A stretch of 64,000 bases of DNA from Pseudocoprococcus catus (GTDB lineage: Bacteria; Bacillota; Clostridia; Lachnospirales; Lachnospiraceae), in the NCBI RefSeq assembly GCF_902381825.1, contig NZ_LR698973.1:2769788-2833787 (forward strand). Reading direction: 5' to 3'. The notes beneath the pieces were generated by a model. That model ran no database searches. It saw only the letters and a list, made by a program, of their open reading frames with translations, and had not been told where the DNA came from. The position numbers and the translations under genes are program-made. Positions 46,089-49,154 of this stretch are shown here, piece by piece (the stretch's first letter is position 1; every line of letters starts with the position of its first letter).

Positions 46089-46166
46089 CCTCCTTATGGA
46101 ATAATTAGTTCAAATTTGAAATATCTATTTATGAACTAATATAAACCATAAGGAGACTTTTGTCAA
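46089..46166 (-). promoter_or_regulatory. marR promoter, operators and long hairpin
   Basis: On the minus strand: TTGACA (46166-46161, inside the 3' end of mgtE), a 17-bp spacer, TATATT (46143-46138). Around and after the start lie TTAGTTCA..TGAACTAA (46139-46132 with 46112-46105) and the perfect palindrome TTCAAATTTGAA (46120-46109). A further outer pairing CTCCTTATGG with CCATAAGGAG (46155-46146 with 46099-46090) extends this to a long hairpin whose 3' arm contains the marR ribosome site, followed by TTTTTT and the GTG start. Confidence 0.75.
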
Positions 46167-47554
46167 ATATGGAAAACATCAATCAGGAATACCATTGCCA
46201 GTCCATAGTATGTAACGACAGCTACCAGATCATTGACAGTTGTAATCAGCGGGCCGGATGCAACCGCCGGGTCCACGTGGATTTTGTGGAAAAACATTGG
46301 CACAATGGTGCCGATCATGCTGGAAACGACCATGGCCACAACCAGTGAGAGGCCGACACAGCCTGAGATCAGGAAAGCGGAAAGCCATGCGTATTTCTTG
46401 AAAAAGTGGATGTAAACACCGAGAAATACCAGAGCCATCAGGCCAAGGCTGATGCCATTGAAGAAACCGATTCTTATTTCTTTGCCGAGAAGGTAGAGTT
46501 TCTTTCTTGTGTTCAGGTTTTCATCCATCAGAACACGGATAGTAACAGCCAGGGACTGTGTGCCGACATTGCCTGCCATATCAAGAACCAGTGACTGGAA
46601 GCAGATAACAATCGGCAGAACGGCAACAACAGATTCGAAGATACCCACAACCGAGGATACACCCATGCCCAGAAATAACAGGATGATCAGCCAGGGCAGT
46701 CTTTTCTTCATGCTGGTGATGGTCGGTTCATTTAAGTCTTCTTCAGATGTCAGACCACCGAGCTTTGCATAATCATCGCCCATGGCATCGTCAACGAGTT
46801 CCACAATGTCCGTTGCGGTCAGGATGCCGGCGATGCGGCCCTCTTTGGTCAGAACAGGAAGAGAGTCTTCTTCGTAATCGGCAATCTTGTCAATGCAGTC
46901 GTTGATTTTCTCGTGTTCGCAGACATAAGGATAGGAACGACTGATAATGTCGGACAGGGCATCATTTTCGCGGGCAATGATTAAATCCTTCAGATCAATG
47001 GCACCTACAAATTTCTCATCCTTATCCACAACGTAAATGGTGGAAATATTGTCATGTTCACCAGCCTGGCGAACGAGAGCGCTCATGGCTTCACGGATGG
47101 ATAATTTGTCGGAAATACAGATGAAGTTGTTGGTCATACAGCTTCCGATTTCGTCATCATCATAGGAAAGCAGTCTGCGGACGTCCTTTCGGGTATCTTC
47201 ATCCAGATGGCTGACAAGTTCCTGTTTTTTGTGTTCGGTCAGATCATCCAGAATGTCCAGTGCATCATCGGCATCCATGTAAGAAACCACTTTGGCAGCC
47301 TTTTCAATCGGAAGTTCTTCAATATATTTTTCAGAATCATCCAGATAAGAAAAGATTTCAGCTACTTTCTGTGCGCCGAGGACAGGATAGAGTTGCTTTC
47401 TTTCGTTTTCACTCAGCAAGGTGATCGCTTCAGCAATATCTTTCTCATGGTAATCGGAAAGCAGCTTCGGCAATTTGGTGGTATCTGTTTCCGTGCGGAT
47501 AATCTTTAACAGTTCTTTTACATAATCTTTCTTGTAAAACATTCTTTTTTTCAT
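46163..47554 (-). CDS. mgtE: Magnesium transporter MgtE
   Basis: 463 residues: an MgtE N-terminal superhelical domain (about 15-125), a pair of CBS domains (about 130-255) and five C-terminal membrane helices with the pore stretch DMAGNVGTQSLAVTIRVL. Mg2+ channel gated by intracellular Mg2+ binding to the N and CBS domains. ATG 47554 follows AAGGAGG (47567-47561); the longer frame from 47605 runs into the leader terminator. Its leader of about 400 nt, with an upstream ORF, structured RNA and terminator, points to regulated expression (see those entries). Confidence 0.92.
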   Translation of the reverse strand: MKKRMFYKKDYVKELLKIIRTETDTTKLPKLLSDYHEKDIAEAITLLSENERKQLYPVLGAQKVAEIFSYLDDSEKYIEELPIEKAAKVVSYMDADDALDILDDLTEHKKQELVSHLDEDTRKDVRRLLSYDDDEIGSCMTNNFICISDKLSIREAMSALVRQAGEHDNISTIYVVDKDEKFVGAIDLKDLIIARENDALSDIISRSYPYVCEHEKINDCIDKIADYEEDSLPVLTKEGRIAGILTATDIVELVDDAMGDDYAKLGGLTSEEDLNEPTITSMKKRLPWLIILLFLGMGVSSVVGIFESVVAVLPIVICFQSLVLDMAGNVGTQSLAVTIRVLMDENLNTRKKLYLLGKEIRIGFFNGISLGLMALVFLGVYIHFFKKYAWLSAFLISGCVGLSLVVAMVVSSMIGTIVPMFFHKIHVDPAVASGPLITTVNDLVAVVTYYGLAMVFLIDVFHI

Positions 47555-47586
47555 GTCGTCCTCCTTGTCACCCCAAAAAAGGGCAT

Positions 47587-47643
47587 AAAAAATACATCGC
47601 TTCACGTTTCAGTTTAATAGCATAGACTGTTGGATGCGATGTA
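47587..47643 (-). terminator. Intrinsic terminator in the mgtE leader
   Basis: On the minus strand TACATCGC (47643-47636) pairs with GCGATGTA (47600-47593), followed by TTTTTT (47592-47587). A smaller CAGT/ACTG pair inside the loop strengthens it. It stands 33 bases before the mgtE start codon, on the same strand, so mgtE must be reached by read-through. Confidence 0.8.
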
Positions 47644-47687
47644 CAAAAGAACGCACGAAAATATAGGATGCGTATAGAAAAGAGGTT

Positions 47688-47799
47688 GCCCAAAGGCCCC
47701 ATGTCTGCAAAGCAGAGGCAAATTCCATACGAATATGTTGTGTCTGCTTTGCAGGCACAAATATTGTATTAAGATTTGCTTATGGGTCTGGGGCTGAGC
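47688..47799 (-). ncRNA. Candidate structured RNA domain in the mgtE leader
   Basis: On the minus strand the following pairs can form together. Outer stem: GCTCAG (47799-47794) with TTTGGGC (47694-47688), and CCCAT (47786-47782) with ATGGG (47702-47698). Inner closing stem: GCAAAT (47779-47774) with ATTTGC (47723-47718). Inside are AATA/TATT (47771-47761), a CTGC-AAA-GCAG hairpin extended by GTG/CAC (47758-47740) and CATA-TTCG-TATG with a UUCG tetraloop (47737-47726). A TCTGC-TTT-GCAGA hairpin (47716-47704) follows. The 5' arms lie inside the upstream ORF. I could not match it to the M-box or another riboswitch I know. Confidence 0.5.
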
Positions 47800-47873
47800 T
47801 TTCCAAATAGCCGCATTCTGACTGTATACTTCTGTTCACCGCATATCTTACTTCGACCTATGCAACTGTCCAT
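47769..47873 (-). CDS. 34-residue upstream ORF (candidate mgtE leader peptide)
   Basis: ATG at 47873, 34 codons, TAA at 47771-47769. A strong GGAGGTGAG ribosome site lies about 9 bases upstream. The peptide is basic, with an Arg/Lys-rich middle (KYTVRMRLFGKL) and a proline-containing tail (LSPRPISKS); it has two cysteines near the N-terminus and no membrane segment. The codons for the tail are the same bases that form the 5' arms of the downstream structure, so a ribosome moving or stalling there would change RNA folding. Known leader peptides of Mg2+ transporters (MgtL of enterobacteria) are also short, basic and proline-bearing; the comparison is only an analogy. Confidence 0.55.
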   Translation of the reverse strand: MDSCIGRSKICGEQKYTVRMRLFGKLSPRPISKS

Positions 47874-47962
47874 GAAAACTCACCTCCGTTTAACTTTCAA
47901 ATTTTGTCAATGATTGACCACTTATAGAAGTGGGGAATCTCGTATAGAGATAGTCCTTTTGG

Positions 47963-47991
47963 ATAATAACAGAAAAATCTGGAAAAGACAA
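47963..47991 (-). promoter_or_regulatory. Promoter of the mgtE leader
   Basis: On the minus strand TTGTCT (47991-47986), exactly 17 bp, then TATTAT (47968-47963) with an extended TG. The start would be near 47956, about 400 bases before the mgtE ATG. Two small hairpins (ATCTC/GAGAT at 47951-47937 and CCACTT/AAGTGG at 47933-47918) follow. Confidence 0.65.
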
Positions 47992-48026
47992 CCCCCCCTA
48001 AAAACAATTTTTAATTTTTATGGTAA

Positions 48027-49154
48027 AGTTTTGTATCGCTTTCTGTTGTTTGCATTGTCCTGCTGCTGGTCATCGGAATTTTTTCCACCGGGTATAGTAT
48101 GCAGAACATTTTGTCAACGCAGCTGCGCACGGAAATACCATATGAATATAGTGTCATAGACTATAATAATGGTGAAACGGATACGATTTTAAGCCGACTG
48201 CCCTCTGAAATCAAGGATAGCAGCCTGATTGCGGATAGCTATGAGTGCGTGGAAGGTACCATGGCAGAGGGAAAGGTATATTACAAGGAGTATGACGTTC
48301 AAATACCAGAAACATTGGCTGCTTATAGATTTGGAGATTTACCAATGATGTTTGTAAGCCTGTCAGATTATAATGGTTTGCGCAAATTGCAAGGCATGGA
48401 GGCGGTTGATTTATCAGAAAATAACTATAGAATCTTATATGATAAAGACACTGTTCGTGAACTTGCAAGACAATTTCATGATAAAAATATCAATCTAACT
48501 CTTGACGGAAACGTGCTTTCTCCGGTGAATGAAGCTGAAGAATTTATCATGTCAAATAGTGGCATGGGTCAAATCATATTTGTAGTCGCAGATGCATGGA
48601 TGAAAAATATGAATGTCGATACAATGATATGGAATGTACAGTGTGTGAGTGAAGACGCAGCAAAAGAATTTGGTGCATTGTTGGATAATTATCAGGAAAA
48701 GAGCGAAAGAGAATGTGCCTTTGTGCATTACGTGAGTAAGCAGCAGGTATATGAATCTTCAGTTACTACAAAGGCAATCATAGCATTTCTGGCAATTTAC
48801 CTTGGTATTGTATTTATGATAGCTTGTGCAGCAATTCTTGCTATTCAGCAGCTATCCGAAGCTACTGATAATGTAGAACGATACAATCTCCTAAAAAAAC
48901 TGGGTGTAGAACGACGTGAACTGAATCGCGCACTATTCATCCAAATTCTTAGCTATTTTCTGTTTCCGCTTTTACTGGCAGTGATTCATTCAGTTGTTGG
49001 CTTGACGGTGGCAAGCCGGGAAGTTATCGAGGTGTTTGGAGATATGAATGTAGCATCCACGATCTTTGCAACATCGGTATTTATTGTGTTAGTGTATGGA
49101 AGTTATTTCCTGCTGACATATGTGGGAAGTAAAAGCGTTATTAACAAAGGATAG
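48027..49154 (+). pseudogene. FtsX-like ABC permease, N-terminally truncated
   Basis: The open frame begins in the middle of a first membrane helix (VVCIVLLLVIGIFSTGYSM) and has no start codon with a ribosome site; the first plausible ATG (48099) lies after that helix. It continues through an external domain and ends with three membrane helices (about 229-250, 280-302 and 322-343 counting from ATG 48099) bearing LKKLGVERRELNRALFIQ, as in FtsX-family permeases of the BceB/VraG kind. The cognate ATPase gene is absent. The mgtE promoter lies immediately upstream on the other strand, so the left breakpoint is at or before about 48010. Confidence 0.7.

Follow-up and report, generated by a model that had tools for sequence, protein, structure and literature searches.

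The window analysed here, a stretch of 64,000 nucleotides from Pseudocoprococcus catus (contig NZ_LR698973.1, positions 2,769,788 to 2,833,787), carries on its minus strand the gene of the magnesium transporter MgtE, whose product scores 280.3 bits against TIGR00400 (cut-off 232.75) and is thus a full-length MgtE. The gene is preceded by a leader comprising, in order and on the same strand, (i) a promoter-like site, (ii) a short open reading frame (ORF), (iii) a region with a UUCG hairpin, and (iv) an intrinsic terminator with a six-T tract; this arrangement had been put forward in a preliminary description of the DNA, and its coordinates were confirmed (Table 1). The promoter scan returned 6 promoter-like sites over 1.3 kb of the window, with 3.1 expected, and a site of at least 9/12 is found 5' of the leader ORF in 43/61 leaders of the family described below, where shuffles predict 14.4. 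The divergent neighbour is an ORF of 351 residues (48099-49154, plus strand) that, by eye, resembles a permease-like membrane protein, perhaps its C-terminal part.

Table 1. Features of the mgtE locus and its leader, in positions of the window.
Feature	Position	Strand	Basis
mgtE, magnesium transporter	46163..47554	-	MgtE_N, CBS and MgtE domains found
Promoter-like TTGTCT-17-TATTAT, extended -10 (TG ahead of second hexamer)	47963..47991	-	motif scan
Shine-Dalgarno of leader ORF, GGAGGTG	47881..47887	-	sequence letters
Leader ORF, 34 codons, MDSCIGRSKICGEQKYTVRMRLFGKLSPRPISKS	47769..47873	-	open frame and family conservation
N-terminal block MDSC--IGRS, codons 5-6 absent relative to consensus MDSCDSxGRS	47850..47873	-	alignment with relatives
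Segment A, start of the ORF	47862..47873	-	complementary to C near the ORF end in 42 relatives
Segment B, ATGCGGTGAACAGAA, ORF codons 10-15, putative antiterminator strand to E	47830..47844	-	predicted duplex, -16.1 kcal/mol
Spacer with hairpins, specific to the window and G001, including UUCG hairpin 47737-47726	47648..47768	-	fold and genome search
Segment E, TTTTGTACATCGCAT; partner B, or F via TACATCGC 47643-47636	47634..47648	-	pairing prediction
Segment F, GCGATGTA and six-T tract, 3' half of intrinsic terminator	47587..47600	-	pairing prediction
Intrinsic terminator, TACATCGC..GCGATGTA-TTTTTT	47643-47587	-	sequence letters
Mini-hairpin GCCC-TTTTTT-GGGG, U-rich loop, directly past the terminator	47571..47584	-	sequence letters
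Shine-Dalgarno of mgtE, AAGGAGG	47560..47566	-	sequence letters

The leader strand folds more stably than its dinucleotide shuffles (z -3.0; 1/100 shuffles equally good), and the absence of M-box core sequences, remarked on in the preliminary description, was borne out by covariance models: the window leader reached the cut-off of no Rfam family, and a permissive scan of 47000-48500 gave nine matches, every one below cut-off and none to the M-box (RF00380). A search of the leaders of 18 relatives likewise found no Rfam match within them, and the M-box or another Rfam RNA is thus ruled out as the identity of the leader in the window and these relatives. The leader peptides of the window and of a relative, G006, have no Pfam or NCBIfam match at E up to 10. 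Elsewhere in the window, the sole Rfam match at cut-off is a glycine riboswitch aptamer (RF00504, 22097-22236, minus strand, 43.9 bits).

Dozens of genomes share the start of the leader ORF ahead of their mgtE, which places the leader beyond chance. One genome for each of 84,980 species was scanned with a pattern of the ORF start, which returned 46 loci; 41 of these have an mgtE match within 2.5 kb (tblastn, window MgtE as query); in four the sequence stops 47-330 bases past the ORF start, and the last, from Actinokineospora (L017), was counted as chance. Hosts with an mgtE match comprise Roseburia inulinivorans, Coprococcus comes, Agathobacter ruminis, Suipraeoptans intestinalis, Hominisplanchenecus faecis, Acetivibrio ethanolgignens, and many Lachnospiraceae assemblies, with a few records labelled Saccharofermentans, Riflebacteria, Bacteroides, or Ruminococcus bromii, some perhaps mis-binned. 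At three loci (L023, L034, and L055) the mgtE match begins well inside the protein, pointing to a truncated gene, a deletion, or an assembly fault. Identical leaders were counted once, L017 was excluded, and L038 and L060, which end just past the ORF start, were excluded wherever a full leader was needed.

Closer to the window, a relaxed pattern with three mismatches matched 13/200 genomes of the family, as against 0/200 for the reversed-pattern control; this control and the linkage to mgtE rule out a chance origin of the ORF start. A 24-letter pattern, also with three mismatches, matched 2/392 genomes of the order (G220 and G330), with mgtE downstream in both. A looser first pattern matched 8/299 genomes with three control matches; three of the eight (G001, G006, and G015) run into mgtE, and the other five (L007, L008, L009, L012, and L013) are, as read, unrelated coding sequence. 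The nearest genome, G001, carries a near-identical leader with an insert of ~90 bases at the ORF end, and among 98 relatives searched at the DNA level G006 gave the sole other match, at an ORF start (MDSCDSRS) upstream of mgtE. Both the ORF start and the pairing described below are conserved in relatives; of the results named in the preliminary description as refuting it, neither a known RNA nor a lack of conservation was encountered.

The reverse approach started from mgtE, with a blind sample of 40 upstream regions of genes with a Pfam span of 387-396 bases, the longer span that leader-bearing genes show, drawn from the matches listed, 8 of them already known and 32 not, a contig end shortening two of the 32. 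A leader is recognisable in 10/32, often more divergent, such as MDKSDSHGR, MDSGDSKGR, or VDNCDSCGR, the last beginning with GTG; four of the ten (L117, L120, L132, and L141) are weak calls by eye. No leader was recognised in the other 22/32 genes of this longer-span type, so the leader is common in that type, not universal. Bases resembling a leader in L138, TATCGAAGTTGG, were left uncounted. In L127 (801-846) the motif GTGCCC-TTTTTT-AGGG, seen past terminators, accompanies an mgtE of the longer-span type, no leader ORF being recognised, and in L050 a TwoAYGGAY RNA (RF01731, 1209-1373) lies ~300 bases upstream of the leader.

The leader peptides share the consensus M-D-S-C-D-S-x-(G/S)-(R/Q)-S and are variable past codon 10. 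The window leader is a diverged member of this family, retaining Asp2 and lacking the Asp5-Ser6 pair. Between nt 31 and 72, in-frame stops occur in 0/42 loci, as against 23/42 and 28/42 in the other two frames. The third base varies at Asp2, Cys4, Asp5, and Gly8, and serine is preserved across codon boxes (TCT at Ser6 of L142, TCG at Ser3 of L137), which together argue for selection on the peptide; the ORF of the preliminary description is upheld at the level of both frame and residues.

Some codons are nevertheless fixed beyond their residues. AGT is used at Ser3 and Ser6 in 43/44 leaders, although the pattern permits AGC and AGT makes up 49% of AGY codons in mgtE genes; codons 1-6 of these 44 leaders are otherwise fixed by the search pattern, Y positions and codons 7-10 being free, and L130, with its GTG start, is absent from the set. 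Arginine at codon 9 is encoded by CGA in 35/35 cases (12/14 in a second set of 17 leaders), compared with 7.5% of arginine codons in mgtE genes, and codon 9 is glutamine in 6/44. The early acidic residues of the consensus are partly imposed by the search pattern; among the ten leaders found via mgtE alone, Asp2 and Asp5 are both present in six (L123, L125, L130, L133, L136, and L137). L141, L147, and L117, like the window with its loss of Asp5, lack the Asp2/Asp5 pair. The leaders contain no run of codons for one amino acid; their consensus has no EPDP and no acidic residues that are adjacent or one apart, its Asp codons being separated by two residues. In L042, one base less past codon 6 retains GGCGAAGT and alters the peptide onward, be it an exception, decay, or a sequencing error.

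The pairing of the leaders was compared with terminators defined solely from the 3' arm (F), the T tract, and the fold, a rule under which 20/63 leaders, including the window, qualify; the 43/63 without a terminator so defined are outside the B:E, terminator-probability, helix, and post-terminator counts. In the terminator-bearing leaders, segment E is able to pair either with F or with ORF codons ~11-16, segment B. Over 18 distinct leaders, each E pairs more stably with its own B (mean -12.6 kcal/mol) than with swapped partners (-9.2 kcal/mol), the own pair beating the swapped mean in 15/18 and 1/20,000 permutations being equally good; the exceptions are L032, L142, and L147. Segments that begin at nt 25, 31, or 37 show this own-pair excess, the one from nt 19 shows it slightly, and no others do. 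With a cruder terminator rule (19 leaders, several with wrong arms) the corresponding figure was 31/20,000 permutations, and the first rule was dropped, having chosen wrong arms in many loci. The residues encoded by B differ among leaders (NDG, CGG, CGE, and DDE), which argues that B is kept as RNA.

The claim of a ribosome-position-dependent attenuator draws support from folding predictions. In the window, the predicted probability of the terminator is 0.12 with a ribosome paused early and 0.89 after full translation; the means over 20 leaders are 0.58 and 0.91. Shuffling B brings the predicted terminator back (mean 0.87, p 0.0014, 20 leaders), an effect clear in 12/20 leaders, where at most 2/25 shuffles give a probability as low (0/25 in the window), and small or absent in 8/20. 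Given these eight, and a terminator that is likely despite a paused ribosome in several leaders, the switch needs a kinetic argument. The first paired base of B lies at a median of nt 36 (range 31-42, consensus numbering, the search having begun at nt 31), and a ribosome on mRNA covers the usual stretch downstream of its position; B would thus be free only with the ribosome at about codon 8 or earlier. For ribosome-free RNA before F is made, the predicted probability of B:E is 0.44 on average and 0.84 in the window, where B:E would therefore form early and the state without translation is not clearly OFF. The window and a subset of the leaders thus combine a predicted antiterminator and an intrinsic terminator that exclude each other, with covarying strands, and a leader ORF with a ribosome-binding site that is kept in frame.

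Other pairings accompany this switch. Segment A is complementary to an element C near the ORF end (-9.9 versus -6.4 kcal/mol for shuffles in 42 loci, with 24/42 in the best 5 of 100); 12 C elements of the form TGTCYRT were found, spread over the three frames, and inspection of the window by eye gave no clear C. An A:C helix could loop out B when no ribosome is present. Predicted accessibility of the mgtE ribosome-binding site changes in the expected direction in 32/52 leaders (p 0.12, not significant), so switching of this site was set aside as a general feature, the change being clear only in L018, L021, L025, L033, and L145. In L018 and L021 a segment past E appears to mask the mgtE Shine-Dalgarno sequence, with a predicted accessibility in L018 of 0.79 in the paused and 0.14 in the finished state. 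A GCCUU before E pairs with the mgtE Shine-Dalgarno sequence modestly better than in swapped pairs (18 leaders, 34/5,000); the window offers no clear equivalent. Past the T tract, 15/20 leaders carry the motif [AG]TGC[CT].

The domain of hairpins that separates ORF from terminator (47768-47648) is matched in G001 only and was not seen in the other leaders inspected by eye. It is present in single copy in G001, which rules it out as a mobile repeat. The insert at the leader ORF end of G001 (L006 1330-1450; C11:74451-74571) is a ~95-base repeat of two ~48-base halves; 48 further matches in G001, full or partial, mark it as dispersed, and the window lacks it.

The leader also separates two groups of MgtE. 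In a maximum-likelihood tree of 83 MgtE rows, some of them duplicates and leaderless genes of the leader type being left out, 51 leader-bearing rows fall on one side of a branch with 100/100 support, and nine rows labelled as M-box rows, from the coordinates of M-box and MgtE, fall on the opposite side with 23 others. Among 200 genomes of the family, MgtE occurs in 139, the M-box in 22, and the leader in 13; no overlap between M-box and leader was seen in the same genome, but only ~1.4 was expected, and exclusion at the genome level was set aside. G001 carries a single MgtE without any M-box match; in G103 one MgtE follows an M-box and a second follows a weak, divergent leader.

The ORF is conserved, linked to mgtE, and accompanied by complementarity of E with both B and F. 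The probable interpretation, and the one we favour, is a translation-coupled attenuator of mgtE, found mainly in Lachnospiraceae and triggered at low Mg2+ through the early Asp residues. The leader ORF would be translated while the leader is transcribed. A ribosome passing freely over the first codons would cover B (codons 10-15 in the window), leaving E to pair with F, and transcription would end before mgtE. We infer that a ribosome may instead pause or drop off on the first residues of the consensus M-D-S-C-D-S-x-G-R-S; B would then be free to capture E once E is made, and the polymerase would read into mgtE. In L018 and L021, in which no terminator was detected, this choice apparently masks or exposes the ribosome-binding site of mgtE. 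Low Mg2+ would be the likely trigger, the ribosome being destabilised by the early Asp residues at consensus positions 2 and 5, perhaps with some help from the fixed CGA and AGT codons if these are decoded slowly. Low Mg2+ is favoured as the signal because MgtE moves Mg2+ and because the enterobacterial leaders MgtQ and MgtL offer precedents in acidic positions 2/5 and EPDP, respectively; in the window, which lacks Asp5-Ser6, the response may be weaker or lost. More tentatively, and without leaning towards it, one may read MDSCDSxGRS as a new nascent-peptide gauge of Mg2+ in Gram-positive gut bacteria, with fixed codons (AGT, AGT, and CGA), whose first residues would destabilise or pause the ribosome at low Mg2+, and which would take the place of the M-box within one clade of MgtE, convergent on the Asp2/acidic-5 logic of MgtQ.

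The same RNA switch could answer a different signal, if scarcity of charged tRNA for CGA (Arg), AGT (Ser), or Cys paused the ribosome and mgtE responded to translational stress. The codon counts, 43/44 for AGT and 35/35 for the codon-9 arginines against 49% and 7.5% in mgtE genes, speak for such hunger, but the leader has no single-amino-acid run, Arg9 is replaced by Gln in 6/44, no rationale is apparent for a Mg2+ transporter answering amino-acid starvation, and RNA pairing may also explain the fixed codons; we consider this explanation unlikely. A riboswitch acting through RNA only would build an aptamer for Mg2+ or another ligand, possibly a pseudoknot, from the start of the ORF together with the A:C stem and B:E, the ORF itself being of minor importance. 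The fixed third bases of AGT and CGA would suit such a riboswitch, as would the spread of C elements over three frames and an A:C complementarity that exceeds shuffles over 42 loci. That proposal is quite unlikely in view of the frame open in 42/42 loci, the residues conserved through codon-box changes in L137 and L142, the free third bases at Asp2, Cys4, Asp5, and Gly8, and the lack of both an Rfam match and a clear C in the window.

Two further readings concern the window itself. The loss of codons 5-6 and ~120 nt of new sequence between ORF and terminator suggest a decaying relic whose only remaining action may be constitutive partial termination, and the repeat insertion in G001 fits such decay; yet the window retains the complementarity of its B, E, and F, the predicted switch (0.12 versus 0.89) is among the largest of the 20 leaders, and the ORF and both ribosome-binding sites are intact, so that a relic is improbable. 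The preliminary description had placed the switch in the last codons of the ORF (LSPRPISKS), with a ribosome there controlling the large hairpin domain. In the minimum-energy fold of the window leader these codons (27-34, 47794-47772) are indeed paired with 47688-47726, and this much of the claim stands; the conserved pairing is located elsewhere, between codons 10-15 (47844-47830) and 47648-47634. Beyond the window, the hairpin domain was matched in G001 only, where the repeat occupies the ORF end, and the stem arms formed by the last codons are window-specific. Control from the last codons is accordingly very improbable, and the attenuator read from the first codons through B:E and E:F is retained.

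If correct, this attenuator would mean that reading of Mg2+ through translation, by peptide control, arose outside enterobacteria, acting on a distinct group of MgtEs in common gut bacteria. The ~60 natural leaders would serve to find what makes a ribosome Mg2+-sensitive, and they pose the question of why the AGT and CGA codons, beyond their residues, are conserved. MgtE of Gram-positive bacteria is known mainly as a target of the M-box; the present system would join the known leader-peptide attenuators, its peptide being new and its target this transporter family. In open-access full text, which mostly leaves out subscription papers and preprints, no title or start of an abstract describes a comparable mgtE leader peptide, and the word mgtE is absent from the main text of a survey of premature terminators (PMC2965389). 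The nearest literature is that on enterobacterial leaders and on the M-box leader of M. tuberculosis, which contains an upstream ORF (PMC12810186).

With trp/his-type attenuators and ermC-type leaders the present leaders share the proposed selection of exclusive hairpins by ribosome position on a leader ORF, differing from the former in that codons for a product amino acid do not occur as a run and from the latter in that no resistance gene lies downstream. Like the M-box, which precedes other MgtEs of the same bacterial family, they lead into a Mg2+ transporter gene, but they have no M-box match and their MgtEs fall in a group of their own. The analogy with MgtL-type leaders drawn in the preliminary description gains support from the early acidic residues ahead of a Mg2+ transporter gene. 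According to PMC11282234, EPDP in MgtL, the mgtA leader, acts similarly to the acidic residues of MgtQ, and ribosome drop-off at low Mg2+ turns the importer on; a pause or drop-off of this kind is what we propose here, although MgtL couples EPDP to a Rho-dependent terminator and the present leaders have an intrinsic terminator and no EPDP in their consensus. The rule given there for E. coli, acidic residues adjacent or one apart, does not hold for MDSCD. Closest is MgtQ, the mgtB leader of Salmonella, in which, according to PMC8092293, acidic residues at positions 2 and 5 (Asp2/Glu5) lower leader translation and raise MgtB: both are short ORFs before a Mg2+ transporter gene with acidic positions 2 and 5, and in both early ribosome trouble selects the transporter-permitting hairpin, as proposed here. 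MgtQ comprises 8 codons, lies within an operon, and acts on translation only in Salmonella, whereas the present leaders comprise 24-49 codons, an intrinsic terminator in many cases, and the conserved MDSCDSxGRS.
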